This document shows, in pieces, positions 9,577 to 32,973 of a stretch of 33,926 nt of DNA. How positions within the stretch are numbered: the first letter of the stretch is position 1; every line of letters begins with the position of its first letter. Both the position numbers and the translations under genes were made by a program. The notes beneath the pieces are model-generated. The model saw only the letters and a list, made by a program, of their open reading frames with translations. It was not told where the DNA came from and ran no database searches. The DNA is from Acidobacteriota bacterium (GTDB taxonomy: Bacteria > Acidobacteriota > Terriglobia > Terriglobales > Acidobacteriaceae): positions 1-33,926 of the forward strand of contig QIAH01000400.1 of the NCBI GenBank assembly GCA_003225465.1, written 5' to 3'.

Positions 9577-9658
9577 ACAATCCGTCGTGAGATTGAAGGG
9601 CGATTCGGAGCCTACGTCTATGGCGGAGTCCACCTTGCGTGGTAGGTAGCTATACTGC
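9577..9658 (-). promoter_or_regulatory. Element A of the 82-bp GTCGTA-N70-AATTGT family
   Basis: On the minus strand column 1 is at 9658 and column 82 at 9577. It has GCAGTA in place of GTCGTA, preceded by GAA, and GATTGT in place of AATTGT, 76 bp apart as in the six other copies. It also has C at column 20, TA at columns 39-40, T at column 50 and TCTCACGACG before the last motif. It ends 130 bp upstream of the formate dehydrogenase start and points toward it. Confidence 0.7.
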
Positions 9659-10025
9659 TTCGGCAGTAGGACAGGCAGCGGGCACTCTGATCAGAATTGT
9701 TTGGTACGATCTTCAAGAGCCACGCTCGGAATTTGAGACTTCTTGCCATGATAATGTCGTTTTGTGCTTCCGGGTGTTGCGAAAGTACCTGCAGCATCTC
9801 GCGCTGCAATTCAGGGTCCCCGGCTATTCTCGCAAAAAAGCCGCTCCAGGCTTTCGGATTCTGCTCAAGGTGCTGAAAGATGTTCCTCCTGTGGTCGCGC
9901 CTTTGAGTGGAACAACCGGGAAATGCTCCAGCAACGTGACGGCCTGTGCCAGCAGCTCCGCGATCTTGCGTTTGCCAAATGGGTCGAACCAGGCAACGCA
10001 AGCTGGTCTTGAGAGCTGCTTGCAA
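9618..10025 (-). pseudogene. Frameshifted relative of the small helical protein at 28779
   Basis: Two minus-strand frames together resemble the intact gene at 28779. The upstream frame reads WFDPFGKRKIAELLAQ then LLEHFPVVPLKGAT. After a shift near 9890 the downstream frame reads RRNIFQHLEQNPKAW, FFARIAGDPELQREM and LQVLSQHPEAQNDIIM. The intact gene has HFPIVSLRDPTT, IRRIIRKLEREPKLR and KEILTILAKHPTAL in the same order. The repeated pattern of a short helix ending in a (D/N/H)P turn suggests helical-hairpin repeats. The end of this frame overlaps element A. Function is unknown; the frameshift could be real or a sequence error. Confidence 0.5.
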
Positions 10026-10050
10026 TTGGCGCGGTACCTCTAGAGCTAGA

Positions 10051-10132
10051 GTCGTATAAGGACCTCTGACCAGGAGCGTACCCGGCGTTACGCGCCTTCT
10101 CTGAAGCGGATTTCATTCTCACGATGAATTGT
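10051..10132 (+). promoter_or_regulatory. Element B of the 82-bp GTCGTA-N70-AATTGT family
   Basis: GTCGTATAAG starts at 10051 and AATTGT at 10127, with the conserved CTGAC at columns 16-20, TA at columns 39-40 and TTCATTCTCACGATG before AATTGT. It ends 31 bp before the first possible start of the FecR/DUF6600 gene, in the same orientation. Confidence 0.75.
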
Positions 10133-10163
10133 TGTAGGTGTCGGCAGTCACTAGCATCGGAAT

Positions 10164-12047
10164 GTGGGAGGCATTCGAGAAAATCCCACAGCGGTCGTGA
10201 TGGGCCGGCACGCGCGAATGGTTATGCAACATAAGATCAAATCCCAAAGACTGCGGGGCTGGCGGTTGGTGGTGTTTGTGTCGCTGCTGTTGGCTCGTCC
10301 ATCGTGGTGCCTCCCAGCACAAGCTTCTCCCTCCAGCCAAGAGAACGTGCCAGCAAGCGATCCGCCCGCCCGAGTCGCTCGCATCAGCCAGCTAAAGGGA
10401 AAGGTTTCGTTCTTGCGGGCCGGCGTGGATCAATGGAGTGAAGCAGCACTCAACTTTCCGGCAACGACGGGCGATCGCATCTACACCGACAACGGAGCCA
10501 GGGCGGAACTCGAGGTCGGGCCTTACACGATCCGGTTGTGGGAAAAGACGGACGTGACCATAACCAATCTGAACGACCAGATCCTGCAGCTTGGACTGGA
10601 CCAAGGCAAACTCCGCATCAGCGTCTCCCAATTGCCTTCCGGCAATACGGTCGAAGTTGACACGCCCAATGGAGCTCTCACGCTTCTCGCTGCGGGTAAG
10701 TACCGCATTGATTCCGACGCTACGCGCAACCGCACGGTCGTGAGCGTGAGCAGCGGTAATCTGGAAGTCACCGGTGGAGGAGTTTCGCAGATAGTAAACA
10801 CTGGTCAGGCTGTCGAACTCACGGGTCAAGACCCACTCCAGGTCAATTCTGTCACCATGCCTGCTCTTGACGACTTCGATATTTGGAGCGAGGAGCGCGA
10901 CCAGCGTCTGGCATCTTCTACTTCCGCAAAATACGTGAGCCCTTCTACTCCGGGCTACGAGGATCTGGACACCTACGGGCACTGGTCGGTAGTCGCTGAG
11001 TACGGGCCCATTTGGTATCCGGTTGTGCCCGCCGGCTGGGTGCCATACCGCTTCGGTCACTGGGTATGGATTGACCCCTGGGGCTGGACCTGGGTGGAAG
11101 ACGAACCGTGGGGCTTTTGCCCATTTCACTATGGCCGGTGGGTGTTCATTGGAGCTGCTTGGGGGTGGCTACCAGGACCGTTCGTTGCGACGCCAGTCTA
11201 TGCTCCGGCTCTGGTTGCATTTCTGGGAGGCCCGAGCTTCTCGGTCGGCATCGGCGTCGGTTTGGTGGGTTGGTTCCCGCTAGGGCCCGGAGAACCTTAC
11301 TTTCCCTGGTATCACCACAGCGGACGTTATCTGAACGAGGTCAACGTCACCAACATCCGGAACGTGACCAATATCACGAACATCACGAACGTTACGAACA
11401 TCAACAATGTTCACTACGCATATCGAACCATCGCAACCACAGCGGTGCCGAGGGACGTTCTTAGTAGTGGACAGCCAGTGGCTCACCAGGTGGTCCGAAT
11501 CAGTGCCCAACAACTCGCGGGGGCGGAGATTACTCCACATCCGACAGTCAACCCAACGAAACATGCCGCGGTGCCCGGAAAGCCCGTACCTCCTCCTCCG
11601 GTGCGGGCCCAGCACCTGATTGCCGCGAACAGAACCTCCCAAGTTGCCGGAAGACCGGCCCCGCCTGGAAGTCGGCAGCCGAACCCACTGGTAACCAGAG
11701 ATACGCAGCCAGAAGGAAACGCAAAACGGCCTCTTCCCCCTCCGCCAAGTGGAAGAACACCGTCTTCATCCCGGGAGCCTAGTAGTCCGCCACGAGCGAT
11801 ACCGCCGAGACTGACTACGAGGACTGCGCCACCGCCCCCGACGATACCCTTTGAGCAAAGGCGTCCCGCTATGTCGGAGCATCCGGGCCGCCCGCTTGAA
11901 CCGCCACAACTCGAAGACCTGCGAGTTGGAAGAGCGGTCGGCCCGATGCACGACAGGGAATTTCCCCCGCATGTGGCGCCGGTTATTCCCGAGAGACCAG
12001 TTCCGGTCCCAGCAAGACCGAGATTCTCTCAAATGAAACCCAAGTAA
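10164..12047 (+). CDS. FecR-domain / DUF6600 exported protein
   Basis: A protein of up to 627 residues. A hydrophobic stretch at residues 33-48 (RLVVFVSLLLARPSW) is a signal peptide or anchor. Residues about 70-230 form a FecR-like beta-roll (GDRIYTDNGARAELEVG, NTVEVDTPNGALTLLAAGKY). Residues about 270-345 are rich in Trp/Tyr/Pro/Gly (YGHWSVVAEYGPIWYP, GHWVWIDPWGWTWVEDEPWG, YGRWVFIG), the DUF6600 (YXWV) signature. Residues 391-416 are a run of NVTNI-type repeats. The last 160 residues are proline-rich and probably disordered. FecR proteins normally couple outer-membrane signals to sigma factors, but here there is no TonB partner and the role is unknown. Starts at 10200 or 10218 would give a more usual signal-peptide length; none has a good Shine-Dalgarno. 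Element B is immediately upstream. Confidence 0.8.
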   Translation: MGGIRENPTAVVMGRHARMVMQHKIKSQRLRGWRLVVFVSLLLARPSWCLPAQASPSSQENVPASDPPARVARISQLKGKVSFLRAGVDQWSEAALNFPATTGDRIYTDNGARAELEVGPYTIRLWEKTDVTITNLNDQILQLGLDQGKLRISVSQLPSGNTVEVDTPNGALTLLAAGKYRIDSDATRNRTVVSVSSGNLEVTGGGVSQIVNTGQAVELTGQDPLQVNSVTMPALDDFDIWSEERDQRLASSTSAKYVSPSTPGYEDLDTYGHWSVVAEYGPIWYPVVPAGWVPYRFGHWVWIDPWGWTWVEDEPWGFCPFHYGRWVFIGAAWGWLPGPFVATPVYAPALVAFLGGPSFSVGIGVGLVGWFPLGPGEPYFPWYHHSGRYLNEVNVTNIRNVTNITNITNVTNINNVHYAYRTIATTAVPRDVLSSGQPVAHQVVRISAQQLAGAEITPHPTVNPTKHAAVPGKPVPPPPVRAQHLIAANRTSQVAGRPAPPGSRQPNPLVTRDTQPEGNAKRPLPPPPSGRTPSSSREPSSPPRAIPPRLTTRTAPPPPTIPFEQRRPAMSEHPGRPLEPPQLEDLRVGRAVGPMHDREFPPHVAPVIPERPVPVPARPRFSQMKPK

Positions 12048-12123
12048 AAAGTTAAGGAGTGCTCGCCAATCAAACGAAAAAGACGGGCTTGTGCACGGAT
12101 ATATGGGCGGCGGATGAATTCAA

Positions 12124-12270
12124 TTGCAAACGATCCGAACCCTGGTCCCTCAATTCGAGTTTGGCTGGAACCTTGCACCAGTCGTGATCCGAAAACTCAA
12201 ATCCGGAGAATATCGAATCTATTCGCGAAACAAGGATTCCAGAACTGGAAAGCGCCACCGCACGAGCAAG
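12124..12270 (+). pseudogene. Remnant of a small KSGEYR...TGKR protein
   Basis: The frame gives VVIRKLKSGEYRIYSRNK then DSRTGKRHRTSKT. The first part matches a pattern I recall from short basic proteins in Acidobacteria (KLKSGEYRLYSRK...TGKRRNLGTF). After TGKR the expected continuation is not present and the frame runs on into low-confidence sequence until 12411. I treat it as a decayed or chimeric copy; no ribosome-binding site is clear. Confidence 0.4.
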
Positions 12271-12400
12271 ACGGCAGCCGGCAGGCTGGTTCCGGCCAGG
12301 CAATTCATCGTCGATGGAGCACGTCGCGGTTCGACGCGCGCAAATGGGGTCTCGAACGCGTCGGAGGCCGCCGGCGAGAAGTCAAAGGAGCCGGGTCGAT

Positions 12401-12931
12401 ATGCGAAGTGAAACACACAAGATGCGCGGAGGGGCCGCCGGTTGGAGGTGCACCACATGCGGTGGGCTCATCACCAGGATCGAACATGGTTGGGTCGAGT
12501 GGCTCGCCGCTGAGGACTCACGAGGAACCACCACTCTGAAGGGCCTTCGGCTTGTTCACGGTCCCTTGCGGCGGTCGGGAGCGACTGGAGGGTGTGGCTG
12601 CCAGTACGATGCTCGGCGCGAATTTCGAAATCATCGCAGCATCGTGGAAGGCTTACCCCTCGAAAGATTTGTTGGCGCGGATGGGCTTATGTTGCTGCTA
12701 GCGTTCCTGGCGGCGGACGAATTACCTAGAAATGATGTTCTCGAACTCGCAAAGAGAGTGCAAATCCCTGGCTATGAGCAAACCCGCGAGCTGTTCCAAG
12801 GAGCCATCAACAAAGGAGCTGTCGCACCTCTGATCAGACCCGGTTACTACTTGCAGTTCGAGATACAAGCGTTGTTAAGGTGGGCGGACAGAGAATCGAA
12901 CCGGGCGAAGATCGACCCTCTTGATGGATAA
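12401..12931 (+). CDS. Conserved-looking hypothetical protein with CxxC motif
   Basis: A 176-residue protein that I do not recognise. I chose ATG 12401 because AAAGGAG lies eleven bases upstream; an in-frame start at 12314 would add 29 basic residues of poor quality. The N-terminus has WRCTTCGGLITRIEHGWVEW, a zinc-ribbon-like knuckle, with GCGCQYD about 45 residues later as a possible second metal pair. The remainder is predicted alpha-helical (GADGLMLLLAFLAADELP, DVLELAKRVQIPGYEQ, LLRWADRESNRAK). No signal peptide or membrane segment. It ends 57 bp before the convergent APC permease gene. It is probably a cytosolic nucleic-acid- or metal-binding protein, but that is inference. Confidence 0.65.
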   Translation: MRSETHKMRGGAAGWRCTTCGGLITRIEHGWVEWLAAEDSRGTTTLKGLRLVHGPLRRSGATGGCGCQYDARREFRNHRSIVEGLPLERFVGADGLMLLLAFLAADELPRNDVLELAKRVQIPGYEQTRELFQGAINKGAVAPLIRPGYYLQFEIQALLRWADRESNRAKIDPLDG

Positions 12932-12988
12932 TGTGACGCCCTCCTGACCAGAGACGGGGACCCTCAGATGTGTTCTCGACATTGTCGA

Positions 12989-15215
12989 TCAATAATTGGG
13001 ACGATTTTCACGTTCCAACAAGTATCGTCGGAGCCGGTGTATCACCATGTCGCCTTTACCCTCGGAAATCTCTTGCTCCACTTCTTTCAACGCAAAATAG
13101 ACGACGTCGTGGTGATGCAAGTCGTGGCCATCCAGCTTCTGACTCAGTTCGCGCCAAAGATTGTGCAGTAGCTCAATCTCGCGGGGTGTGAGGTGGGGCG
13201 CGTGCGGCCCCAGATAGAAGAAATGCTTTTCTCCCGAATGAGAATAGATCTCCAGAGCCATCCTGGGTCGAGGCTGCGGCAGTCGCTCCCACGCCAGACC
13301 AATCAAGCGAGCTTGTTGATTGATCGACAATTTTGAAGACTTTCCCAATACCACCGTGCGCGACTGGAGACTAGCCGCAGCACGAACGATTCCGTCCCAG
13401 AGATTATTGGCCTCGACAACCGCCAATCGAACCTGTTTACCTTCTTTTTCAGCCAGGGCGACGACTTTGGTGAAGAGCACCTGCTCGATTGCGGTGAACA
13501 GCTGATCGGGAGCCAACTCGTGTTCGCCAGATGAAGCTCGTCTAACCACCCGCATGTGCAGCACAACCACGTCCTGTCGTTCCACGTTTGCCTGCCTAAG
13601 GACGAACTCCAGATGCCAAAGCGCGTGATGGTTGCCGACGCAAACCAGGAGGCCACCAGGTCGGCAGCCCACCGCCGCTGGGGAAAGATCGGATTGCTGA
13701 GTCAGCTGAAACTGGTCGCCATGGGTCCGGAGAAGGCCGTGTTTTTGTGTGAACCTTTCCGAGGCGGTAAAGACCAGGAATAGAAACGCGGAGAAGCTGA
13801 TGCCGGAAATAGTGGCCACTGGCTTCGTAAGGAGATTCGTGGCGGCGATTGCAAGAAGAGCCAGGGTAATGGTTCCCAAACCCAAGGGAATCTCAGTTCC
13901 GTGAAATCTGAAGTTGAGAGGAACCCGAAATTCACGGGGCCCTGGTCTTTTGAAACGAAGTACCAGCACTCCCAGGCTTTTGAGCACAAAACTCCAGAGA
14001 ACGCCGAAGGCATAGGCCTCACCCAGTACATACACATTTCCGCGACTAAGAAAAATCGCAAGGAGCTGGAGAACCGCTACCACATTGATGATCCGGTAAG
14101 TTGTGCCAAACCGCGAATGTGGATGACGGAACCAGTCGGGCAGAACGCCATCTTCCGAGACCCGATTCAAGACCCCATTGGTTCCAACCATGGACGTATT
14201 CACAGCACCGGACAAGATCAAGACTCCGACGAGGACAACAAAGAGATGAAAGACTATCTTCAGTGAGTGCGGACCGGCAACGTACATGGTCAGCCCAGCG
14301 ATGAGGTTGTCAAAGAACGCCGTCCGCATCTGGTCGGGAATAATCATGACCGCAAAGAATGAGACGAGAGAGGTGAATACCAGGCTGTAAGACCAGCTTG
14401 GGGTGCTCGATTTCGCGGTAGACCTGGGCCAGGGTCTCCTCCCCGCTCATGGCCAGTACGGAATGACCGAGACCTATGAGAATTCCTAGGACTCCAATGG
14501 TCGGCAGCCGGCTACCCCGCAGCCAGCCCAGCGCTTCCGGAGAGAAGTGCAGGTTTTGGGGGAGCGGCCAGGGAGGCAAGTGCGCTCCTCGAACAACGAG
14601 AGTATAGGAGCACCACGCGATCAGAAGTGCCACCATGGCGGTGGTGATATACATGATGCGGAGCGCTTTTTCGCTGCTCTCCGGAATGCCCTTGATGTTG
14701 ACCCACCAAAAGTACACAGTCACGAGAGCAGCGAAGGAGGCGGCCGCAAAATCTCTCGACAGGTGCACGTCAAGCCGTGCATAGCGAAATAGCTCATTCA
14801 AAAACCCGACAAGGTACTGGCCTGCCGACACGCCACTTATCGGCCCAGTGCGGACGTAATCAAACAGTAGTGCTGAGACCGAGATCTTGGCCATGGTGAC
14901 GCCCATGGCCTCTTTCACGACCCGGTACACGCCGCCACGGACGAACATGCCGCAACTCTCGATGTAGACCGACCGCACAGCATACGACAGCAGCATAACC
15001 GCCAGAATGAACCAGGGCGCGGCCTTCCCCACGGCTTGCTCAGCGATGCCGCCCGCATAGTAGGCCGAGGACGCCAGATCGTTCAAAACGATCGCGGCTG
15101 CACGCCAAAACGAAATGAAGGTGAGCATAGCTGTGGTCACCACCACGACCTGTGGGAGGTGACTATTAACGCTCTCGCCAGTCTTTCTTGCGGGTGTGAG
15201 CACTATGCGCTCCAT
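12989..15215 (-). pseudogene. APC-family permease with C-terminal USP-like domain, disrupted by a small deletion
   Basis: Two minus-strand frames form one gene. Frame 1 (15215 to about 14370) is the N-terminal half of an amino acid/polyamine permease: VVVVTTAMLTFISFWRAAAI, AYYAGGIAEQAVG, then membrane helices up to SGEETLAQVYREIEHPKL. Frame 2 resumes with YSLVFTSLVSFFAVMIIPDQ and carries the remaining helices, then a cytosolic domain (LLVCVGNHHALWHLEF ... RTVVLGKSS ... INQQARLIG) resembling universal stress proteins. Between HPKL and YSLVF only a few bases remain, whereas the family has about a dozen residues there, so a short non-triplet deletion near 14380 seems to have shifted the frame. 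Frame 2 could start at ATG 14347, but the product would lack half the transporter. Substrate unknown. It converges with the gene at 12401. Confidence 0.75.
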
Positions 15216-15595
15216 GGCCGAAATACCACGCGGACCAGCAACGATGAGACATTGCGGAGAGGTCCGCGCGGTCCGGCTATTTCTTAGACTGCGAATTTCG
15301 TCTTCACGTGCGATTTTCTTACGCAGCTCGCCAGGTGGCTCTACTGCTTAAGTCTTATAACTCGCTGTGACCTGAGGCTAAGCCCTTCCTACGCGTCCTT
15401 GCCGAATCTTCCTTCACTCTCCGGAGGAATTGTGAGAGTGACGTCCGGTTCGTAGCATCCCGGATTGGGAGCGTTGTTCTTCCAGGAGGCCGTTCACCTG
15501 CAAAGGGGGAGCCGGCAACCGTTTGGCGGGCGTCTTTGCATGTGTTCCTCTCAGGAGGCGCGTCTGACATGTCAGCAGAGGATGAAGGAGAGCGA

Positions 15596-16117
15596 ATGAA
15601 AAGCGCAATTTGGTCTCTGATGGCCGTTGCAAGTTTGCTGGTCCTGGCGACTATCGCCTTTTCGCAGGAGATCAGGACGGACTACGACCACCATGTCAAT
15701 TTCTCACAGTACAAGACCTATTCATGGGCCAAGGTCGAGACCCCGGATTCCATCTGGAACGAGCGCGTAAAGGAAGCGGTCGATAGAGCATTAGCAGCGA
15801 AAGGCTGGACCCAGGTCCCGTCGGGCGGCAATGTTTCGATCGTCGCGGTGGGCACCACTCATGAAAAACCCACGCTGCGAACGTTCTATAACGGGTTTGA
15901 TGGCTGGCTCTGGGGAGGCTTTGGTGACGCGACCACCTATGTGGAGAACTACGAAGAGGGGACGCTGATCGTCGACATGTTCGACACAAGTACCAAGAGG
16001 CTGATATGGCGAAGCCCGGCCAGTGACGTCGTCTCCAGTAAGCCTGAGAAGAACATCAGGAAGCTCGATAGGGCAGTACAGAAGATGTTTGAGCACTTTC
16101 CACCCGCACTTGGGTAA
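15596..16117 (+). CDS. DUF4136-type exported protein
   Basis: A 173-residue protein. A signal peptide spans residues 1-23 (MKSAIWSLMAVASLLVLATI, cleavage near AFSQ). The mature part begins IRTDYDHHVNFSQYKTYSW, the hallmark of DUF4136, followed by VKEAVDRALAAKGW and a C-terminal EGTLIVDMFD and KRLIWRS segment. There is no lipobox cysteine, so it is periplasmic or outer-membrane-associated rather than a lipoprotein. The start at 15596 has AAGGAG six bases upstream; an earlier in-frame start at 15536 is less likely. Function of the family is unknown. It precedes dnaK by 134 bp and may be co-expressed in stress. Confidence 0.85.
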   Translation: MKSAIWSLMAVASLLVLATIAFSQEIRTDYDHHVNFSQYKTYSWAKVETPDSIWNERVKEAVDRALAAKGWTQVPSGGNVSIVAVGTTHEKPTLRTFYNGFDGWLWGGFGDATTYVENYEEGTLIVDMFDTSTKRLIWRSPASDVVSSKPEKNIRKLDRAVQKMFEHFPPALG

Positions 16118-16251
16118 TGGACTGTGTGACTCGCATCTGACAACCCTGTCGCCTTGAAAGATGAGCAGATCCGCGACGCTCTGGGGCATTGATTCTTGGC
16201 GGCCTAGAGAAACCTAACCTGGCATTCATAGAGTTATGGGAGGTCTGAAAC

Positions 16252-18186
16252 ATGGGAAAGACGATCGGCATTGATCTCGGTACTACAAACTCAGTCGTGG
16301 CGGTCATGGAAGGTGGCGAGTCCAAGGTCATCCCGAACGAGGAAGGGAGCCGGACGACCCCGTCGGTAGTTGCATTCACGAAGACTGGGGAGCGTCTGGT
16401 CGGGCAGGTGGCCAAGCGCCAGGCGATTACCAATCCCGAAAATACCATCTACTCCATCAAGCGTTTCATGGGCCGCCGCTTTGAGGAAGTTAGCGCAGAG
16501 ATGAAGATGGTTCCCTACAAAGTGGAGCGCGATGGCGACCACGTCGTGATCGTGGCCCAGGGCAAGAAATACACGCCGCCCGAGATTTCCGCTTTGATAC
16601 TCCAAAAACTAAAGAAGGCCGCCGAGGACTACCTCGGAGAAAAGGTCAGCGACGCAGTCATTACCGTTCCCGCGTATTTCAATGATGCGCAACGCCAAGC
16701 CACCAAAGATGCGGGAAAAATTGCTGGCCTGGATGTGAAACGAATCATCAATGAGCCCACGGCGGCCGCTATGGCATACGGCCTCGACAAGAAAAAGAAC
16801 GAGACCATCGCGGTTTATGATTTCGGCGGCGGCACCTTCGACATTTCGATTCTGCAGGTCGGCGAAGGCGTCATCGAAGTACAAGCCACAAACGGCGATA
16901 CGCACCTGGGTGGAGATAACATTGATCAGCGCATCGTTGACTGGCTTATAGTCGAGTTCAAGAAAGATGAAGGCCTGGATCTTCGTAGCAAAGGGAACGA
17001 GATGGCACTGCAGCGTTTGCGTGATGCTGCAGAGCGGGCCAAAATTGAGCTCTCTACCACGATGGAAACCGAGATCAACTTGCCCTTCATCACGGCAGAC
17101 GTTAACGGGCCGAAGCACCTGGTCAAGAAACTGACGCGCGCGAAGCTCGAGGCCATGGTTGAGGACATCATTCAGCGCTCGGTAGGGCCGTGCAAACAAT
17201 GCATGAAGGACGCGGAAGTCGATGCCAGCAAGATTGATGAAGTCGTGCTGGTGGGTGGCCAGACGCGCATGCCGCGCATTCAGCAGCAAGTGAAAGAGTT
17301 GTTTGGAAAAGAAGGCAACAAGAGTGTGAATCCGGATGAGGTGGTCGCGGTCGGCGCCGCTATTCAAGGCGGCGTACTCCAGGGCGAAGTGAAAGACCTG
17401 CTATTACTCGACGTGACTCCGCTGACGCTTTCGATCGAGACCCAAGGTGGCGTGGCCACCCCGATGATTCCGCGCAATACGACGATTCCGACTCGCAAAA
17501 CCGAAATGTTCTCCACCGCGGCGGACAATCAGACTTCGGTTGAAGTACACGTCTTGCAGGGCGAGCGCCCATTAGCCAGTCAGAACCGTACTTTGGGCAA
17601 ATTCCATTTGACCGGTATTCCTCCGGCTCCTCGTGGCGTTCCCCAGATAGAGGTGACTTTCGACATCGACGCCAACGGCATTCTTAACGTGGCCGCGAAG
17701 GACATGGCCACAGGCAAGGATCAGAAGATCACGATCACATCGTCGTCGGGTCTGAGTAAGCAAGAAGTCGAGCGTCTGGCAAAGGAGGCCGAGGCGCATG
17801 CCGCGGAAGATAAGGCCCGACGCGAACAAATTGAAGCCAAGAACCAGCTCGATTCGATGGTCTATAACGTCGAGAAAATGCTTCGCGAACACGGCGACAA
17901 GATCTCAGGCTCGGAACGTGGCGATGTCGAGAACGCGGTTGCCGATGCCAAAAAGGCGCTGGAGTCCGACGACAAACAACAGATGGACCAAGCGCGTGAG
18001 CGGCTTACCCAGGCGTCTCATAAGCTGGCCGAGCAAATGTATAGGGCAGCACAACCCCAAGGCGCGCAGGGTGGAGTTCCGGGTGCTAGTGCGGGCCCGG
18101 CGCCAGGGGGCGACGGTCAGGCTAAAAAGGATGAAGGCGTGGTGGACGCCGAGTATGTCGACGTCGACGACAGAAAGAGTGCCTAG
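16252..18186 (+). CDS. dnaK: Chaperone protein DnaK (Hsp70)
   Basis: A full-length 644-residue Hsp70. The nucleotide-binding domain has [17 protein letters not shown] at the start, [31 protein letters not shown], the phosphate-2 loop [13 protein letters not shown] and [14 protein letters not shown]. The linker [16 protein letters not shown] leads to the substrate-binding domain ([33 protein letters not shown]). A helical lid and a Gly/Pro-rich tail follow, ending DAEYVDVDD, a variant of the usual EEVKD-like acidic end. It refolds proteins with DnaJ and GrpE, neither of which is in the window. Ribosome-binding site GGGAGG lies ten bases before ATG. The next gene begins 13 bp downstream, suggesting an operon with the small protein and probably the sigma factor. 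Confidence 0.98.
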
Positions 18187-18199
18187 CGGAGATGCGAAT

Positions 18200-18430
18200 G
18201 TGACGCCGGTCGACGGTACGTTCTTCTACGGCTCGCCTCCAGGAGAACGCGCGTTCCGCGCGCTCGACAATGTTCGGAATGTGTACGGAATCCGCCAACT
18301 GTCGGTTGATGCGAAAGCGCGCGCCATCCAGGTGGAGTACGATGCGTCCCGCCTGACTCGGGATGATGTCGGAGCGCTGTTGCGCGAGGCTGGAATCGAC
18401 GTTCGCGGCGTACACAGAATTGTTTTGTGA
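18200..18430 (+). CDS. Small HMA/ferredoxin-fold-like protein after dnaK
   Basis: A 76-residue protein starting at GTG 18200, with CGGAG nine bases upstream, and in a different frame from dnaK. Its order beta-alpha-beta-beta-alpha-beta (TFFYGSPPGERAFRALDN, VYGIRQLSVDAKARAIQVEY, LTRDDVGALLREAGIDVRG) matches the ferredoxin-like fold of heavy-metal-associated domains, including GIRQLSVD and IQVEYD in the positions of the second and third strands. The metal-binding CxxC is absent (there is GSPPG at the loop), so metal transport is unlikely. Close linkage to dnaK suggests translational coupling. It may be a stress-adaptor protein; function unknown. Confidence 0.7.
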   Translation: MTPVDGTFFYGSPPGERAFRALDNVRNVYGIRQLSVDAKARAIQVEYDASRLTRDDVGALLREAGIDVRGVHRIVL

Positions 18431-18499
18431 GGCTTCACATCATCCAGAATCTGACGAGAAACCGGGAGAACCGAGTTGAAGGAAAAGGAGCAATCCGGA

Positions 18500-19300: not shown

Positions 19301-19468
19301 GGTCCTCGCATCAATTTGATCTCCCCTCGTTTTCTTGTCATGGGTAAGCGATCGCCAGCATAGCTAATCTTCTCGACCAAGGTCGGTAGCGCGGGCCAAG
19401 AGACTTTCGAGGCGACTATCTAGTCGAGTATCGTGCGCTCTAGAGCGATCCCAAAACGGCAGGACGTA

Positions 19469-20728: not shown

Positions 20729-20790
20729 AGGGGCTCCTATTTACGCCTCTTACCGTAGCAAAAGGCGTAGTGAGTGGCACTAATGCAGAA

Positions 20791-21785: not shown

Positions 21786-21915
21786 ATGGTGGCTGGCTTC
21801 TCCCTCCACTGGCTTCGCCGGATCGCGTCAGCTCTTTCAGCCCTCGGTGGCACAAGCAGAAAAATCCGGACTCAAGTGCATACCGCGTCCGACACTACGT
21901 GCGCCTACTTCGGAA

Positions 21916-21997: not shown

Positions 21998-22111
21998 TAC
22001 AGGCCAAATCTGTCTCTAGCATTCGACCTTGGAGGCTGCAAGTCGCTCGTGGCGAGCTGTCATACATAGATGGAGCCTTCACGAGAAAAGCATGGAAGGA
22101 AGGATAGATAC

Positions 22112-22780: not shown

Positions 22781-22866
22781 CGTAGAGGGCGTTGCTGACC
22801 TGCGGGAATTGTCCGTGCCCTCGGGATCATTGCCGGGCGGCCTCTAGGAACCAGAGAGGATTGTAA

Positions 22867-24354: not shown

Positions 24355-24357
24355 ACG

Positions 24358-25248: not shown

Positions 25249-25316
25249 CACCTAACAAGCAGGGAACTTCATTGTCCCCTTGTGCGTCGCCCATCGCTTT
25301 GTTGATTGTGCTTGCG

Positions 25317-25799
25317 CTAGATTCCCTTGACCTGGGGCTCGACTTCCGCTGCCCTCCAGAAGATCTCTGCGATGTCTTGTCTGTCGTGAGGGTAGTAGTG
25401 AGGGGCGGGATGTTCGAGGAACGGTGTCGGCTGCAAATGCCGAGGGTGGGCGACAACAGTCGCGTGATACAGGCCGACCCCGCGAACGGCGATCTCTGTA
25501 ATCTCAACAGAGTTGAAACCGGACATTCCAGCCATTTCCGTTAACCTCCTCACTGCCCTTTGTGTCGCAGACTGCCGAGTCAGGCCAAAAGCAGTGCACT
25601 TGACGGCTTTCGCGATGTAGGAAAAGTGCCACCCTGCCGCGAGAGCTGTGCGCTCGACGGCACGGCTATCCGCATCAAACAGTTTCTTCCATCTACCGTA
25701 GTCTTCGTAGTTAAAGCGAAACCACTTCGGCAATGGTATGTCACTCTTGATCAGTACGGTGCCGACGGAAAGCGAATGTGCTCGATCACGTGTGGTCAC
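25317..25799 (-). CDS. Conserved-looking hypothetical, second gene of the doxX operon
   Basis: A 160-residue soluble protein starting at ATG 25799, seven bases after the stop of the DoxX gene. Visible blocks are LPKWFRFNYEDYGRWKKLFD, SRAVERTALAAGWHFSYIAK, LTEMAGMSGFNSVEITEIAV and YHATVVAHPRHLQPTPF. I recognise the style as a conserved Acidobacteria protein but no function. It has no signal peptide and no cofactor motif; the histidines HPRH and HPAPHYYPHD could bind metal. It converges with the mlaF gene, leaving 68 bp with no terminator I can see. Confidence 0.75.
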   Translation of the reverse strand: MTTRDRAHSLSVGTVLIKSDIPLPKWFRFNYEDYGRWKKLFDADSRAVERTALAAGWHFSYIAKAVKCTAFGLTRQSATQRAVRRLTEMAGMSGFNSVEITEIAVRGVGLYHATVVAHPRHLQPTPFLEHPAPHYYPHDRQDIAEIFWRAAEVEPQVKGI

Positions 25800-25805
25800 C
25801 CGCCC

Positions 25806-26198
25806 CTACCTCATTCTCAAACTCATGGGCCATGGTTGCGGAAGAAGCAGGAGCATCAAGAGAGCCCCCACCAGCGCCATGTTCTTCATGAAGTTGATCA
25901 TATCGGTCTGCCTCATTTGCGGGTCGTCCATCTTCCAGTAACTGTGGATCTGGAAAGAGACTGCTACTAGAAAGATGACCAGAAGAGCGATCCCGACTTT
26001 GGTGTACACACCGAGCAGCATGCTGAGTCCACCCGCCAGGAGAATGACGCCAGTTCCCGCTACGGCGAGCCTCGGAGATGGCGTTGCTTTGGCCTTCGCG
26101 TATTCGCTCATGGCATTGAGGTCCTTGAAATGGTTGAACCCCGCCATCAACCAATACGCTCCCAAGATGATCCTTCCAATCAGAAAAGCGATGTTCAT
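25806..26198 (-). CDS. DoxX-family membrane protein
   Basis: A 130-residue integral membrane protein with four predicted helices: IAFLIGRIILGAYWLMAGFN, LAVAGTGVILLAGGLSMLLG, VGIALLVIFLVAVSFQIHSY and MALVGALLMLLLLPQPW. The N-terminal FLIGRIILGAYWLMAGFNHF is the DoxX/SURF4-like signature. DoxX proteins are linked to redox or oxidative-stress membrane complexes. GGAGG lies 13 bases upstream of the ATG. Element G ends 52 bp upstream and points to it. The next gene, 25317-25799, is only a few bases downstream. Confidence 0.9.
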   Translation of the reverse strand: MNIAFLIGRIILGAYWLMAGFNHFKDLNAMSEYAKAKATPSPRLAVAGTGVILLAGGLSMLLGVYTKVGIALLVIFLVAVSFQIHSYWKMDDPQMRQTDMINFMKNMALVGALLMLLLLPQPWPMSLRMR

Positions 26199-26250
26199 GG
26201 TAGCTTCACATCCTCCATATCGAGATGCTATGGCTCGCAGGCTACCGGTA

Positions 26251-26332
26251 ACAATTCATCAGAGGGATAACCCGATAACGGAAAAAGGCTCCTAGGAAGG
26301 AATCGAACCCAGGGCGGAGACTCTCATACGAC
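26251..26332 (-). promoter_or_regulatory. Element G of the 82-bp GTCGTA-N70-AATTGT family
   Basis: On the minus strand GTCGTATGAG starts at 26332 and AATTGT at 26256, 76 bp apart. TCCTAGG occupies columns 36-42 and CTGATG precedes AATTGTTACC. It lies between the HAD gene and doxX and drives toward doxX. Confidence 0.75.
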
Positions 26333-26368
26333 CCTAGTACAGCCAAGACCGGCCGTGCCCAGCATCGC

Positions 26369-27055
26369 TCACATCCCGACGCGAACACCGACTTCATCCA
26401 GGTGTTGCAGCAGATCGTACGGGTCCTGGTACACGCGATATGCGCCGGCGCGTTCAAGTTCATCCTGTCCGTAGCCGCCTGAAAGAAGGCCAATCCCAAG
26501 AGCTCTTGCGCGCTGCGCAGCCAGCAGGTCCCAGACGCTGTCTCCGACCACGAAGGAGGTGTGGATATCTGTTTTCAGACGATCCGCTGCAGCCAGAAAC
26601 AGGTCGGGATCGGGTTTTGCGCGCTGTACCTGATCGCGGGTAACGACCGGGACTTCGGGCCCAAGATTGAGCACTTGCAGAGTCTGTCGGGCAGAATCAA
26701 TTCTCCCGCTGGTGGCGATCGCCCAGGGAACAGCGGCCTTGGTTAGGAAAGCCAGCAAATCCCGTGCGCCCGGAAGCGGTCGAACCTGGGCGGCCTGTCG
26801 GGCATATGCCTCGGCATGGCATCGCTGGAGTTGCTCTGCCTGTTCAGTATTTACTGGCTTTCCCGTCTCTCGCAGTAGTGCGCTGGCCAGTAGCCCACCG
26901 CTCATGCCGACACGGCGATGAATGCGCCACACGGCAAGTTCAATGCCGCAGCACTCCAAAGCTTCGCGCCAGGCCAGAACATGGTGGTAGACGCTGTCCA
27001 CGAGCGTGCCGTCAAGATCGAAGAGGAAAGCTGGCAAGTTTCGCGCCTCTTTCAT
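26369..27055 (-). CDS. HAD-superfamily hydrolase (phosphoglycolate-phosphatase-like)
   Basis: A 228-residue HAD enzyme from ATG 27055 (GAAGGGG eight bases upstream). Motif I is FLFDLDGTLVDS with nucleophile and acid/base aspartates, motif II is ATSG in WAIATSGRID, motif III lysine is in RAKPDPDLF, and motif IV is VVGDSVWDLLAAQRA. The helical cap between motifs I and II (AWREALECCG ... LLRETGKPVN) is the C1 type of the phosphoglycolate phosphatase/beta-phosphoglucomutase group. A small sugar or glycolate phosphate is the likely substrate, but the exact one cannot be told. It follows hsp20 by 58 bp on the same strand, so it is likely the last gene of the HdeD-Hsp20 operon. Confidence 0.9.
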   Translation of the reverse strand: MKEARNLPAFLFDLDGTLVDSVYHHVLAWREALECCGIELAVWRIHRRVGMSGGLLASALLRETGKPVNTEQAEQLQRCHAEAYARQAAQVRPLPGARDLLAFLTKAAVPWAIATSGRIDSARQTLQVLNLGPEVPVVTRDQVQRAKPDPDLFLAAADRLKTDIHTSFVVGDSVWDLLAAQRARALGIGLLSGGYGQDELERAGAYRVYQDPYDLLQHLDEVGVRVGM

Positions 27056-27113
27056 CCTTCTATCCCCTTCATCCGCTCGGGGTATGCCCGAAGGGTTGAC
27101 CTGCGTCCATGCC

Positions 27114-27761
27114 TCAAGCAACCTTCTGCCCGGCCGGAGCCTCACTCGTGGCAGGTTTCTGTTCCGTACCCTGCGCCGCCGTTGTGGTTTGAATTGGAAT
27201 TTGGCGCAGGTTGCTCTGAGCTTGCGGAACTGGAATGGTTACGTGCAACACTCCGTTCTGAAACTCGGCGCGCGCGTGTTCTGTATCCGCTCCCTCCGGT
27301 AAAGCGATGGCACGATAAAACTGTCCATATCTCCTCTCGGTTCGCCGGATTCCGCCTTCAGTTTCTTCCTGCTCAACCTTCCGTTCGCCTTGAATGGTCA
27401 AGAAGTCATCATTGACTTCGACCTTGACATCCCTTTCGGTGAGGCCGGGCAATTCGGCAGACACGATGAGATTGCCGTCCCGATAGGCTATTTCCGCAGC
27501 CGGCACCCATGCTGTACTCAAGAATTCATCGCCACGGCTGGAGAAATCGAGTCCCGCCTGCGAAAACACGCGGTTCATTTCCTTTTGCATTCTTCTGACC
27601 AAGGAAAAGGGATCGTCCTCAAAGAATCCAAGCGGATCGAGCAACAGGGATGGCAGAGTAGGCAGAGCAGCTCGGCGGGCCAACCCAGTCTGCTGCCCCT
27701 TTGATTCTCCTCTTGACGTGATTTGTGAAGTTGCCAATTGATTTGATTTTTGCGCTGACAT
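27114..27761 (-). CDS. Small heat-shock protein Hsp20 (internal start)
   Basis: A 215-residue alpha-crystallin protein with its own start at ATG 27761, preceded by GGAGG at seven bases. After a basic N-terminal segment, LDPLGFFEDDPFSLVRRMQK begins the typical N-terminal arm. The crystallin domain spans WVPAAEIAYRDGNLIVSAEL, GLTERDVKVEVNDDFLTIQG, ERRYGQFYRAIALPEGAD and FQNGVLHVTIPV. It prevents aggregation of unfolding proteins independently of ATP. The same frame is open upstream through the HdeD-like gene, so a longer fused product (27114-28541) is formally possible; the strong internal ribosome-binding site argues for separate synthesis. Element E lies upstream of the whole unit. Confidence 0.9.
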   Translation of the reverse strand: MSAQKSNQLATSQITSRGESKGQQTGLARRAALPTLPSLLLDPLGFFEDDPFSLVRRMQKEMNRVFSQAGLDFSSRGDEFLSTAWVPAAEIAYRDGNLIVSAELPGLTERDVKVEVNDDFLTIQGERKVEQEETEGGIRRTERRYGQFYRAIALPEGADTEHARAEFQNGVLHVTIPVPQAQSNLRQIPIQTTTAAQGTEQKPATSEAPAGQKVA

Positions 27762-28541
27762 TGTCTGCCTCCGTAGGATGGATTTTGAAATTCTAGGACT
27801 GAAAATTTCGGGCCAATCAGATGCAGTGACCCCGTATGGATTCATTGTTGCGTGATTGGGCACGCTTGCGTGCCCCTGTGGCCGGCTTCGACTCGGTCTG
27901 CGCCAATCTCGGAGAGCTCGCCCAAACATGATCAAAGACCAGCCGCGAAGAATTAACGAGACCCCCACAGCCAGGCAGACAAACCACGAGTCTAACCACG
28001 GCCGTGTCGTCCAAAACACCGCGCCCAGCAGGAGCATGACAGCTCCGTCAACCACCGCCCATGGCCAACTGCGAAACTTGAGGCGGAGTGCGGCGAGCAA
28101 ACGAAAAAGGCCGACCACGGTGAAGAGACAGGCAAACAGTAGCGTCCAACCGACATCACCCGCAGCAGGGTGTGTGAGGATGAGCAAACCAATCGGAATG
28201 CCGGCGACGCCGGGAACGAGATGGAAAAAGAATGCGTCCGATCTGTGCAGGTACAAGGCGTGAACGGTTTCTGCGAGGCCGCTCACCAGGATGAGCCAGC
28301 CGAGCAGCATAACCACACTGCTGGCCGCAAAACCGAGTATCCCGAATGCCAGAACCCCAAGCATGATCAGGGTCGCTCCAAGCTCCGTACACCAACGCCA
28401 ACTGTGGCGCAGGCTTCCAGTGTCCAGGAACACGACACTCGCGGGATTCTCGTGTGCACTTGAATTCTGTTCGCGTTTGATCATTTCGTGCGCCGTAGCT
28501 CGGAAATCTGATCGATGATCAGGATTCTCCCTCATCTTCAT
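27114..28541 (-). CDS. HdeD-like membrane protein, open in frame into Hsp20
   Basis: The first about 215 residues are an HdeD-type membrane protein with six helices (for example LGATLIMLGVLAFGILG, ASSVVMLLGWLILVSGL, GVAGIPIGLLILTH, VDGAVMLLLGAVFW, VCLAVGVSLILRGWSLIM). HdeD proteins are linked to acid or general stress. The frame does not stop after RALRDWR, as expected, but runs about 45 residues through what looks like intergenic DNA, including an 8-bp perfect hairpin (GGGCACGC TT GCGTGCCC, 27858-27875), and into Hsp20. The likely real HdeD end is near 27900. ATG 28541 is the first start; 28484 is an alternative. Either a natural fusion or loss of the HdeD stop explains this. Confidence 0.75.
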   Translation of the reverse strand: MKMRENPDHRSDFRATAHEMIKREQNSSAHENPASVVFLDTGSLRHSWRWCTELGATLIMLGVLAFGILGFAASSVVMLLGWLILVSGLAETVHALYLHRSDAFFFHLVPGVAGIPIGLLILTHPAAGDVGWTLLFACLFTVVGLFRLLAALRLKFRSWPWAVVDGAVMLLLGAVFWTTRPWLDSWFVCLAVGVSLILRGWSLIMFGRALRDWRRPSRSRPQGHASVPNHATMNPYGVTASDWPEIFSPRISKSILRRQTMSAQKSNQLATSQITSRGESKGQQTGLARRAALPTLPSLLLDPLGFFEDDPFSLVRRMQKEMNRVFSQAGLDFSSRGDEFLSTAWVPAAEIAYRDGNLIVSAELPGLTERDVKVEVNDDFLTIQGERKVEQEETEGGIRRTERRYGQFYRAIALPEGADTEHARAEFQNGVLHVTIPVPQAQSNLRQIPIQTTTAAQGTEQKPATSEAPAGQKVA

Positions 28542-28620
28542 TTTCTGCGATTAGGAACCCGCCCGCGCTTCGTCTTTGCAGTCTCCTAGTTGCCGATGCT
28601 AGTGACGGGCTTTTGTCATG

Positions 28621-28702
28621 GCAATTCGTCGTGAGAATGAAGGGAGAGTCGGAAAAGAAGACTAGGAAGGCATCCCCCGTGGGTCAGAGAGAGTCATACG
28701 AC
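28621..28702 (-). promoter_or_regulatory. Element E of the 82-bp GTCGTA-N70-AATTGT family
   Basis: On the minus strand GAAGTCGTATGAC has GTCGTA starting at 28702, with CTGAC (columns 16-20), TCCTAG (36-41) and TTCATTCTCACGACG before AATTGC (28626-28621). The last motif has C for T at its final base. It ends 79 bp upstream of the HdeD start, same orientation. Confidence 0.75.
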
Positions 28703-28778
28703 TTCGGGGGTAGATTGTTAGACAGTTGCCCGCAATTACTTAAGTAAGGTGAATCTCTATCGGAGGGTGTGAAATTCT

Positions 28779-29590: not shown

Positions 29591-30244
29591 ATGATGCGAC
29601 CGACAACCACTAACGCTTTCGACGTCAATGCCTTTTTTGTGGCTGTCGGGTCTGAGAGGAGGATCACCCACTATCGGAAGCGGCAGATCATCTTTTCGCA
29701 GGGTGATGAGAGCGACTCGATCTTCTATATTGAAAAAGGGCATGTGAAGCTCTCGGTAGTATCGGCCGAGGGCAAGGAAGCAATTGTCTCCGTTTGCGAC
29801 GGGGGTAGCTTTTTCGGCGAGAGCTGCATCGAATCAGATTGCCCCGTCCGCTTTCATAGCGTGGTTGCTCTCACGAAGGTGGATCTCGTGAGAATTGAGC
29901 GCGCGGCGATCCTGCATCTCCTGAATGCCGGCGGCCCGGAAGCTCTCAGGTTCATTTCGTTTGTCCTCAGGCGCAACGCGCGAATCCAGGAAGAGTTCGC
30001 GAATAGTCTCGTGGAGCCAAGCGAAGAAAGGTTGGCGAGGATTCTTCTCTCCCTGGACCGGTTCAGACGGGAGGAAGATGGTGAATCGGTCCCGAGATTC
30101 AGCCAGCAGGCCATGGCTGAAATGATTGGCATCAGCCGACAACAGGTCAATGTTCTTATGAAGCGCTTCAAGAAGGGGGAGCTTGCTGCCGGCCCGGCAG
30201 GCTCGAGAGTTCAAAAGTCTCGGCACGACGTCTCGAACCAGTAG
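29591..30244 (+). CDS. Crp/Fnr-family transcription regulator
   Basis: A 217-residue regulator. The cNMP-binding beta-roll covers residues about 20-110 (YRKRQIIFSQGDESDSIFYI, EKGHVKLSVVSAEGKEAIVS, GSFFGESCIE), followed by the dimer helix. The C-terminal winged HTH is RFSQQAMAEMIGISRQQVNV, LMKRFKKGELA. The FGES replaces the FGE(L/M) cAMP-pocket motif partly, and the usual arginine and serine for cAMP are not clear, so cAMP may not be the ligand. There are three cysteines (SVCDGG, GESC, ESDC) within 20 residues in the roll, unlike the N-terminal cluster of FNR; a redox role is possible. It may control the cluster, and an inverted repeat lies upstream. Confidence 0.9.
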   Translation: MMRPTTTNAFDVNAFFVAVGSERRITHYRKRQIIFSQGDESDSIFYIEKGHVKLSVVSAEGKEAIVSVCDGGSFFGESCIESDCPVRFHSVVALTKVDLVRIERAAILHLLNAGGPEALRFISFVLRRNARIQEEFANSLVEPSEERLARILLSLDRFRREEDGESVPRFSQQAMAEMIGISRQQVNVLMKRFKKGELAAGPAGSRVQKSRHDVSNQ

Positions 30245-30694: not shown

Positions 30695-31543
30695 ATGGAG
30701 CATGGCATGGCTCGGAATCGCAGGCCGCTTCCATCAGGTGGGCATTATCCAGGTGGAGGTCCCGTCCAAACCGTTACGACTTCCGCAGGAGCGAGAATCC
30801 GAGAGACTCTGCTCAGGGCCAGTTCAGCTGCGTTGTTGGAGAGTAGGAGCGGCCAATCGAGTTCCGCGCTGGATAGTACGGAGGGTCTATCAGACATAGG
30901 AACCAAGAAATCGCTCACAGTCTTGGTTGCTGATAATCATCCGGTGGTGCGCGAGGGACTGGTAGCACTGATTAGTCGTCGATCCGACATGCAGGTCATC
31001 GCTGAGGCCAGTAATGGTCGTGAAGCAGTGGAAACGTTCTTCGCTCAGCGCCCTGACATCGCGCTTCTCGATCTGCGAATGCCCATGCTGGATGGCATCG
31101 ACGCGGCTAGATCGATTTGTGAGAAGGATCCAACCGCGCGCATCGTTATCATTACCAGCTACCAAAATGAGGAGGACATCTATCGGGCATTCCGAGCCGG
31201 TGCCCAGGGATACATTCTTAAAGATGCCATGGTAGACCAGTTGGTCGAATGTATTCATGCAGTGGGAGACGGCAAAACATGGATCCCGGCAGAGGTAGGG
31301 GCGAAGCTTGCCAGGCGAATCGCAGACCGAGAATTGACTCGACGTGAAACTGAGGTGCTTCACGCCGTGGCCGCAGGCAAAAGTAATAAGGAAATTGGGT
31401 CCTCCCTCGACATCAGTGAGGGGACCGTCAAGGTGCACATGACGCACATTTTGGAAAAGCTAAAAGTCACGGGACGTACGGAAGCCATCAATGTGGCTGT
31501 GAAGCGGGGGCTGGTCCGCATCGACGGGCCGACTGACACGTGA
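30695..31543 (+). CDS. NarL/FixJ-type response regulator
   Basis: A frame of 282 residues. The receiver begins at about residue 72 (KSLTVLVADNHPVVREGLVA) with the phosphoacceptor D126 in IALLDLRMPMLDG, then VIITSYQN and YILKDA with the conserved T/S and K positions. A LuxR-type HTH follows (ELTRRETEVLHAVAAGKSNK, EIGSSLDISEGTVKVHMTHI, LEKLKVTGRTEA). The first 70 residues are low-complexity and not part of the family, so the true start is probably downstream, for example near 30890. The kinase gene lies 130 bp downstream, so the pair likely works together. DosR of mycobacterial dormancy belongs to this family. Confidence 0.9.
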   Translation: MEHGMARNRRPLPSGGHYPGGGPVQTVTTSAGARIRETLLRASSAALLESRSGQSSSALDSTEGLSDIGTKKSLTVLVADNHPVVREGLVALISRRSDMQVIAEASNGREAVETFFAQRPDIALLDLRMPMLDGIDAARSICEKDPTARIVIITSYQNEEDIYRAFRAGAQGYILKDAMVDQLVECIHAVGDGKTWIPAEVGAKLARRIADRELTRRETEVLHAVAAGKSNKEIGSSLDISEGTVKVHMTHILEKLKVTGRTEAINVAVKRGLVRIDGPTDT

Positions 31544-31673
31544 ACCGCGGGCCGAGCTAGTGGGACGTTGACGATGTGGGCGTGACCTAAAAGCCGTACA
31601 ACCGCACCAGCCTTGAGTTCATCCCAGCAGCAGCCGCGATCCGCCCGCGGGCAAATGTATTGGAGAAGAGGTT

Positions 31674-32840
31674 ATGAAGGCAAGCGCGTTCTCCAACACG
31701 TTGACGTCCAAAAACTCCGTCGGCAAACTCCCTGCCGCGGTTGGGCGCCTTCCCCGGTTATTTTCGGTGGCAAGCCTCGACACGGGCGCAAACGGTCCGT
31801 TCCCGGGGTCGCTATTGCAGACGCTCTTACGCAGCGCGCCGGATGGTACCGTGGTGTGCGATGGGCGGGGAGCCATAACGATGGTCAACGAGGGAGCAAA
31901 GCGGCTGGCGCAAATGGATCCCGAAGGAAAGACGCTGAAGATGGCGCCCAGCATCTGGGGGGAAATGTTCGATCCCAATGGCCATCGCATTCCAGCAGTG
32001 GAATGGCCTTGCACGAGAGCTCTGGCAGGGAAGGTTACGCTCGGCAGAGAGTGCCACATGGTCCGGTCCGACAACAGTTCTTACGACATCCTCTTTAGCG
32101 CGTCTCCGATCAAGAACACTTGCCGGCGCACAGTTGGTTCAATCGCCACGTTAACCGATATTACCGAGCACAAGCGAAAGGAATTGGTGCTCCGCGAACA
32201 GATGGTGCTGCAGGAGCGTGGCCGGATTGCCGCGGAGATGCATGACACCGTGGTGCAGAGTTTGAACGCAATTGTGGTTCAGCTTGAAGCAGCTGAAGAG
32301 GAATACCTTGAAGACCCGGAGCATGCCCGGCAGCGGCTGCGCCGCGTGCGTGAGGTTGCCCGCGAGAGCCTCGCGGACATCCGACGTTCGATGTGGACCT
32401 TGTCCGGTGAATCCTTCGAGAACGAAGACCCGGCAGCCGCGCTGGCGTTCTTTGCTCAGAAAGTCTTTGCGGATACTCCGGTCCACCTGGAGTTGCGTCT
32501 CGAAGAAGCTGCTTGCGGGTTGACCCCGAAAATGGGCCTCGGGCTCTTGCGCATCGGCAAAGAAGCCCTCGTGAATGTATGGAAGCATGCGCAAGCAACG
32601 AAGGTCCGTGTCGAATTGAATTACGGGAAACAAGACGTGCGATTGTCTGTACTTGATAACGGTCAAGGGTTCTTGTCTGTTCCACTCTCGAGTACCCAAC
32701 GCGGCTTTGGCCTGTTCGGCTTCCAGAGACGTGCCGACAGCCTTGGTGGCAAGGTTGTGGTACATAGCCGGCCAAGGCGAGGGACGCGGGTCGTTGCGAC
32801 CATACCCTTGCGTTTGCCTCGCTTGAGACAAGCTGCCTGA
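31674..32840 (+). CDS. Soluble PAS sensor histidine kinase (HisKA_3)
   Basis: A 388-residue kinase without membrane helices. Residues about 45-165 form a PAS domain (LLQTLLRSAPDGTVVCDGRG, WPCTRALAGKVTLGREC, SIATLTDITEHKRKE). A HisKA_3 dimer domain contains the phosphorylated H190 in AAEMHDTVVQSLNAI. The HATPase domain has GKEALVNVWKHAQATKV (N box), LSVLDNGQGF (G1) and RGFGLFGFQRRADSLGG (G2). It is the natural partner of the NarL-type regulator immediately upstream. The absence of transmembrane helices suggests an internal signal, possibly redox or a ligand in the PAS pocket; cysteines at 62 and 113 lie in or near the PAS domain. GGAG lies seven to ten bases before the ATG. Confidence 0.93.
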   Translation: MKASAFSNTLTSKNSVGKLPAAVGRLPRLFSVASLDTGANGPFPGSLLQTLLRSAPDGTVVCDGRGAITMVNEGAKRLAQMDPEGKTLKMAPSIWGEMFDPNGHRIPAVEWPCTRALAGKVTLGRECHMVRSDNSSYDILFSASPIKNTCRRTVGSIATLTDITEHKRKELVLREQMVLQERGRIAAEMHDTVVQSLNAIVVQLEAAEEEYLEDPEHARQRLRRVREVARESLADIRRSMWTLSGESFENEDPAAALAFFAQKVFADTPVHLELRLEEAACGLTPKMGLGLLRIGKEALVNVWKHAQATKVRVELNYGKQDVRLSVLDNGQGFLSVPLSSTQRGFGLFGFQRRADSLGGKVVVHSRPRRGTRVVATIPLRLPRLRQAA

Positions 32841-32891
32841 TTACGTCGGGCTTTCCATTCGGGCCGCTTGTAGAGCAGGTCTAAAGCTGAA

Positions 32892-32973
32892 GTCGTACAA
32901 CGGCATCGAACCCAGGCAGAATTCACTCCTACTCGTGCTTTCGGAATCTCGATTCATCCGCACGAAGAATTGT
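32892..32973 (+). promoter_or_regulatory. Element F of the 82-bp GTCGTA-N70-AATTGT family
   Basis: GAAGTCGTACAAC with GTCGTA at 32892, CGAAC ending at column 20, TCCTAC at columns 36-41, and CGCACGAAGAATTGTCATG at the end (AATTGT at 32968). It lies about 200 bp upstream of the next recognised gene at 33173, same strand. Confidence 0.75.

Follow-up and report, generated by a model that had tools for sequence, protein, structure and literature searches.

The stretch of 33,926 nucleotides examined here, contig QIAH01000400.1 of an Acidobacteriaceae genome (assembly GCA_003225465.1; hereafter the window), contains eight copies of a conserved intergenic element, best read as the control region of a NarL-family regulon whose multi-dimer operator is strictly phased, which is unusual. 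With good confidence, each element can be regarded as a promoter with an operator, where the NarL/DosR-family response regulator whose gene lies in the same island, once phosphorylated by its kinase, would bind a series of dyads and activate stress genes. The dyads are probably docking sites for this single DosR/NarL-type stress regulator, and the element probably lets certain Acidobacteriaceae turn on a set of heat- and stress-protection genes jointly.

Seven copies of an 82-bp element had been reported in the first-pass annotation of the window, and all seven are present at the coordinates and on the strands given there, with their boxes, the 76-bp register, and the invariant columns. However, the total is eight, as copy H (GTCTTA...AATTGT, 15352-15433(+)), upstream of the DUF4136-DnaK genes, was absent from that list. 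Scored with a leave-one-out position weight matrix on both strands, the eight copies reach 20 to 133 bits, the best other place in the window being at about -4 or lower. In the ungapped alignment of the seven initial copies, 39 columns have at least 6/7 identity, compared to a mean of 1.8 and a maximum of 9 in 1000 random sets; hence, the column conservation is not due to chance. Because the pairwise identity of the copies over 82 bp is merely 44-71% (mean 59%), they are not recent duplicates, in agreement with the previous statement that this is no recent insertion repeat, and the pattern is made by shared landmarks rather than by recent copying. While the register of the 82-bp core holds, its boundaries do not: it is the middle part of a longer conserved element, with a CTA box approximately 11-12 bp upstream, and TAGCAT 20 bp past the core in five copies and 21 bp in two (copy C has CATGAT).

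The anatomy of the element was observed directly, in a logo built on 105 matches from the fetched loci (E ≤ 0.05) and in dyad counts over 97 non-redundant sites. Most copies carry four 16-bp dyads T-N4-C-N4-G-N4-A following each other in steps of exactly 24 bp. In the logo, they occupy columns 2-17, 26-41, and 74-89, with a degenerate one at 50-65; in the counts, the peaks of the dyad score start at -89, -65, -41, and -17 relative to the -35 box, again with exact 24-bp steps, and all four letters T/C/G/A are found in 67, 52, 6, and 81% of sites, respectively, with the background over all offsets averaging about one out of four letters. One period beyond either end of the array, no signal above that of other offsets was seen in the 97 sites. 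The distal dyad, CTAc..C.aaaGTCGTA, is at its standard place in 67 sites; it is displaced by one period further in three, by one closer in three, and by two closer in three (-24, +24, and +48 bp, respectively), is off by ±1 base in six, and is found elsewhere in only two, and at one site (L035:11180) a 24-bp insertion is visible in the alignment. Since the distal dyad shifts by exactly -24, +24, or +48 bp, 24 bp is the modular unit, and the element can be described as a variable number of 24-bp modules (2-5 units) between a distal cap and a promoter-proximal site.

The last dyad is followed by TTG, 3 bp, a spacer of 17 bp (60 out of 83 assigned sites) or 18 bp (21 out of 83), and TAGCAT, the second (A2) and last (T6) bases of the -10 box being invariant in the 105 matches. 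The -35 TTG and a -10 of the form TANNNT at 16-18 bp from each other are as in sigma70-type promoters, and the sole common slip in the element is the length of the spacer between TTG and TAGCAT, as expected for such promoters. The element thus has the appearance of a sigma70-type promoter, TTG-N3-N17/18-TAGCAT, plus upstream operator dyads; the reading of GGAATTG as a promoter of the extracytoplasmic function (ECF) type was rejected in view of the sigma70-type spacing to TAGCAT. The earlier suggestion of a promoter was therefore right in kind but not in its anatomy: the -35-like (A)C at positions 18-20 and the -10-like TCCTA at positions 36-40 are no promoter boxes and fall within the second and third dyads, respectively; the leader box AATTGT is indeed conserved but actually holds the true -35 (TTG); the true -10 (TAGCAT), 17/18 bp from TTG, lies outside the 82 bp; and the activator site GAAGTCGTA is part of the operator, yet only half of the most distal of the four dyads. 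Dyads 1, 2, and 4 have the 7-2-7 organization of NarL/FixJ operators, i.e., two 7-bp halves, a 2-bp gap, and TAC/GTA-like ends (TAc..C....GTCgTA for the distal dyad), and dyad 3 conforms to it in its outer bases only.

A first model, built from the eight window copies using sequence only, yielded 16 matches in the 6.1-Mb source genome: eight on the window contig, four on C444, three on C417, and a weak one on C49. The strong matches are confined to the first three of these contigs. Among 60 relatives, four further genomes were positive. A second model, based on 33 matches, was run on 398 genomes of the family, the window genome included, and the scan of related genomes proposed earlier found the element in 20 out of 398 genomes from 15 genera, approximately 100 sites in total. 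In a sample of 297 genomes from the phylum, elements were found in the window's own genome only, and a wide spread across the phylum was accordingly rejected. At the end of contig C444 (L017, 7641-7720), an 80-bp stretch matches element F (window 32879-32958) at 97.5% identity and then diverges; this truncated copy, one of the four C444 matches, may be a contig-junction or assembly artefact or a duplicated element. Genome G150, from another genus, shares long segments (L091-L094) with window positions 8897-28339 and with C444 at 81-92% DNA identity, which suggests that the island moved horizontally between genera.

The claim that the elements point at genes is borne out: 78 out of 101 have the start of a gene from a recurring family within 450 bp in the pointing direction, compared to 16 out of 101 on the opposite side and 49 out of 303 for random positions; the first figure is favoured by the fact that the families were defined from genes in the pointing direction. 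The recurring first genes encode HdeD/DUF308 and/or Hsp20 (13), YfdX (8), DUF4136 (7), BON (7), DUF6600 (6), and HisKA_3 kinases (5), and the same loci also hold DnaK, GroES-GroEL, Hsp20, FtsH, phosphoribosyltransferase/erythromycin-esterase-type genes, and zinc alcohol dehydrogenases. The same gene families are preceded by elements in different genera. The proposed link to a stress cluster is likewise supported, the elements being aimed at genes for chaperones, proteases, and envelope stress (HdeD/Hsp20, YfdX, DnaK, GroES-EL, BON).

The proposed activator is a NarL/DosR-family response regulator (30695-31543(+)) with a receiver domain and a GerE helix-turn-helix domain, whose recognition helix is TVKVHMTHILEKL; its proposed partner is a histidine kinase (31674-32840(+)) with PAS, HisKA_3, and HATPase_c domains. 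A conserved gene for a CRP/FNR-family regulator (29591-30244(+)) adjoins this pair, and the order CRP-regulator-kinase is kept in G097, G100, and G028. Regulator orthologs with 60-75% identity lie within the element loci of G097, G012, G100, G283, G094, and G096, in four of these with kinase orthologs beside them, and in most genomes the regulator and the elements are on one contig. Across the 398 genomes, the nine best regulator matches (at least 64% identity in the best segment, that of the window being one of the nine) are all in element-bearing ones; next come G100 (63% by the same measure), G214 (58%), and G034 (55%, element-bearing), followed by a background of at most 51%. The hypergeometric p of this co-occurrence is about 3e-13 when genomes are counted and 2e-8 when genera are counted. 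In G214, which had come out negative in the first genome scan, weak elements are found 3-7 kb from the regulator (E 1.3e-4, 1.1e-3, and 1.9e-3). The recognition helix TVKVH[MV]THILEKL is common to all eleven orthologs; the paralogs with identity of at most 51% are mostly of the TVKTHINN type. A second copy of the regulator gene in the source genome (C49, L019, 6438-7070 and 7997-8066) is broken after GKSNKE in the DNA-binding domain, with a weak element remnant approximately 1 kb away.

Several observations weigh against this assignment. An ortholog of the regulator is absent from ten of the element-bearing genomes, where the best identity is at most 44%; seven of them are 74-87% complete, and most are incomplete or carry their elements on a short contig or close to the end of one. 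Three, G131, G226, and G015, lack the ortholog though they are 97-99% complete; in these, either the regulator sits on a contig that was not binned or the elements are served by a different factor. In the logo of 105 matches, the third dyad retains the outer T and A but loses the inner C and G, and may be bound weakly or differently. Further, the best half-site, AGTCGTA, departs from the full NarL heptamer TACYYMT, fitting AKRRGTA at 5/7 positions and differing at two middle ones, and 24 bp correspond to about 2.3 helical turns, that is, not to a whole number of turns.

The ten genomes without the ortholog also speak for the strongest alternative, that the same array is bound by another factor, either the CRP/FNR-family protein (29591-30244) or a response regulator from outside the island. 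CRP-like orthologs adjoin the regulator-kinase pair in the three genomes with the conserved gene order, and also occur in the element loci of G283. Nevertheless, we consider this rather unlikely: with its outer T/A and inner C/G, the 16-bp dyad follows the NarL 7-2-7 geometry, whereas CRP and FNR half-sites are arranged as TGTGA-N6-TCACA and TTGAT-N4-ATCAA, respectively, and the CRP-like gene is present in the fetched loci of five genomes, the response regulator in those of 11.

Less probable still is that the -35/-10 pair is the promoter of the ECF-like sigma-70 factor of the island (18476-19300(+)), with the upstream block secondary. This gene, the third one past element H, matches TIGR02937 with 64 bits, above the cut-off, within a seemingly element-driven operon, and its orthologs are found in only four out of 398 genomes, all of them element-bearing (hypergeometric 5e-6). 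However, it is absent from 16 out of 20 element genomes, including G283 (98% complete, at least eight elements); the spacing in TTG-N3-N17/18-TANNAT is of the sigma70 type; and a sigma factor leaves dyads up to 115 bp upstream unexplained. As the main regulator, this factor was therefore dropped because of the 16 genomes, and it looks rather like a regulon member and a weaker candidate regulator. When contigs were scanned for its relatives, a single locus emerged, apparently that of G028. Encoded after DUF4136-DnaK, the ECF-like factors (window 18476-19300(+); L035:962-1753; L103; L099) share a conserved insert ADA[DE]GE.W.PEDLDDSE between the region-2-like and region-4 parts.

A dispersed mobile or non-coding repeat landing between genes by chance is very improbable: although the copies are confined to few contigs and the island apparently moved between genera (the G150 segments), this explanation is already contradicted by orientation and conservation, as copies with 44-71% identity keep register and landmarks, point at genes (78 versus 16 out of 101), and recur before the same gene families in different genera. 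Finally, a structured or riboswitch-like 5' leader RNA, the alternative raised in the first-pass annotation, could account for the rigid internal spacing and the dyads, but is hardly credible, since RNAalifold gives no consensus pairs for 105 sites, the Rfam scan of the window yields only a tRNA and nothing at the elements, the conserved block is upstream of a correctly spaced -35/-10 pair and the inferred start, and whole 24-bp units are gained and lost.

Returning to the NarL/DosR-family regulator, the PAS-HisKA_3 kinase would phosphorylate the adjacent regulator (30695-31543), and one dimer of the latter would occupy each 16-bp dyad, in its best form TAC..C....GTCGTA, with exactly 24 bp from one centre to the next. 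The RNA polymerase, carrying a housekeeping-type sigma factor, would use TTG(N3)-N17/18-TAGCAT and start transcription 7 nt past TAGCAT, which would place the dyad centres at approximately -43.5, -67.5, -91.5, and -115.5. The dimers would assemble side by side, the one abutting the -35 box touching the polymerase and turning on the stress gene, and given the 24-bp steps (about 2.3 turns), they would spiral round the DNA instead of being aligned on one face, which would be the most unusual feature of the mechanism. We infer the consecutive filling by dimers and the proximal polymerase contact from the parallel with the E. coli NarL at ogt; binding by the window regulator, activation and not repression, the sigma factor, the start site, and the signal are likewise predictions. 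More tentatively, the 24-bp arrays may be the footprint of a cooperative polymer, with the NarL-family regulator forming a helical row of two to five dimers between dedicated distal cap and promoter-proximal sites, and the strength of a promoter would then depend on how many 24-bp units it has. To our knowledge, such polymer promoter architecture has not been described for NarL-family regulators.

In the window, element A (9551-9669(-), from CTA to TAGCAT, spacer 18) is aimed at the remnant of a truncated formate dehydrogenase alpha gene (8866-9489(-)), whose frame (8611-9489(-)) stops at a TGA flanked as in QARV-TGA-HAPTVSSLGPTFGRGAM, a context typical of selenocysteine FdhA, the frame degenerating approximately 20 codons beyond the TGA. 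Element B (10040-10157(+)) precedes a DUF6600 gene (10164-12047), and element H (15341-15458(+)) precedes DUF4136 (15536), DnaK (16252), and the ECF-like sigma factor (18476). For element C (20780-20897(+)), with CATGAT as the -10 box, the target is uncertain, the next family-supported gene being DksA/TraR-like (21396-21785). Element D (21905-22022(+)) is followed by genes for an outer-membrane beta-barrel (22070), an HtrA/DegP-type protease (22867), and an ABC ATPase (24358); element G (26225-26343(-), spacer 18), by DoxX (25806-26198(-)), with GGAGG and the start codon within about 30 nt past TAGCAT; and element E (28596-28713(-)), by a fusion of DUF308 (HdeD-like) and Hsp20 (27114-28541(-)) and a HAD hydrolase (26369-27145(-)). 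Element F (32881-32998(+)), directly past the kinase gene, precedes an open reading frame (ORF) without a Pfam match (33053-33397) and another ORF from 33419 onward. The window also contains a 73-bp tandem duplication with 93% identity (680-825) and an amino-acid permease in two overlapping frames (12989-15215(-)), apparently one frameshifted gene.

Little is known about gene regulation in Acidobacteriaceae, and this analysis puts forward a probable regulator, together with a probable operator and promoter, for a mobile island of stress-protection genes in this group. From a single repeated motif, it arrives at a regulon that can be tested, with approximately 100 promoters as predicted targets. 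Given the exact 24-bp modularity, arrays of 2, 3, 4, and 5 units form a natural series for studying how response-regulator dimers cooperate on DNA.

A single site resembles the NarL-type 7-2-7 operator; for the whole arrangement, the statement that no such motif had been described holds in the literature searched, which lacked most subscription journals: neither four tandem response-regulator sites at 24 bp nor such a regulon in Acidobacteria was found. In E. coli, NarL dimers bind 7-2-7 dyads, and ogt is activated from -44.5, abutting the -35 box, and also from -67.5 or -77.5 (PMC7419079). The similarity to NarL promoters (ogt, yeaR) includes a NarL-family dimer, 16-bp 7-2-7 repeats, TAC...GTA ends, and one site abutting the -35 box with a further upstream site, the ogt positions of -44.5/-67.5 being comparable to those of the two proximal dyads, about -43.5 and -67.5. 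In contrast, ogt has two sites 33 bp apart, while here there are usually four in exact 24-bp steps at approximately 100 promoters, the middle of the half-site AGTCGTA is not that of the NarL heptamer, and the targets are stress, not nitrate, genes.

The mycobacterial DosR/DevR system similarly combines a NarL-family regulator with a HisKA_3 kinase and has Hsp20-type and phosphoribosyltransferase genes among its targets. AGTC in the half-site lies as far from the dyad centre as it does in the 20-bp DosR palindrome, the outer bases being different. Still, the operator ends and the 24-bp array differ, the phylum is another one, and the window kinase has a PAS domain, with only PAS, HisKA_3, and HATPase_c seen in it and no heme-GAF sensor of the DosS/DosT type.

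NarL-family response regulators are also known to govern yfdX in enterobacteria: EvgA induces it via inverted repeats (PMC3720670), and RcsB is needed for YfdX production (PMC6394985); the likeness is at the level of the regulator family, and both the operator arrangement and the lineage differ. As for gene content, the tLST, or locus of heat resistance, is an island that moves horizontally and contains HdeD, YfdX, sHsp20, FtsH, and DegP-type genes (PMC8290217), and these are shared by the island described here. Compared to the tLST core dna-shsp20-clpK/clpG, HdeD with Hsp20, YfdX, FtsH, and HtrA were found, and no Clp was seen among the selected ORFs scanned. Unlike in the tLST, DnaK, GroES-EL, BON, DUF4136, DUF6600, and two-component genes are added, and transcription units have arrays of their own. 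In its gene content, the island appears to resemble the tLST with DosR-like additions.

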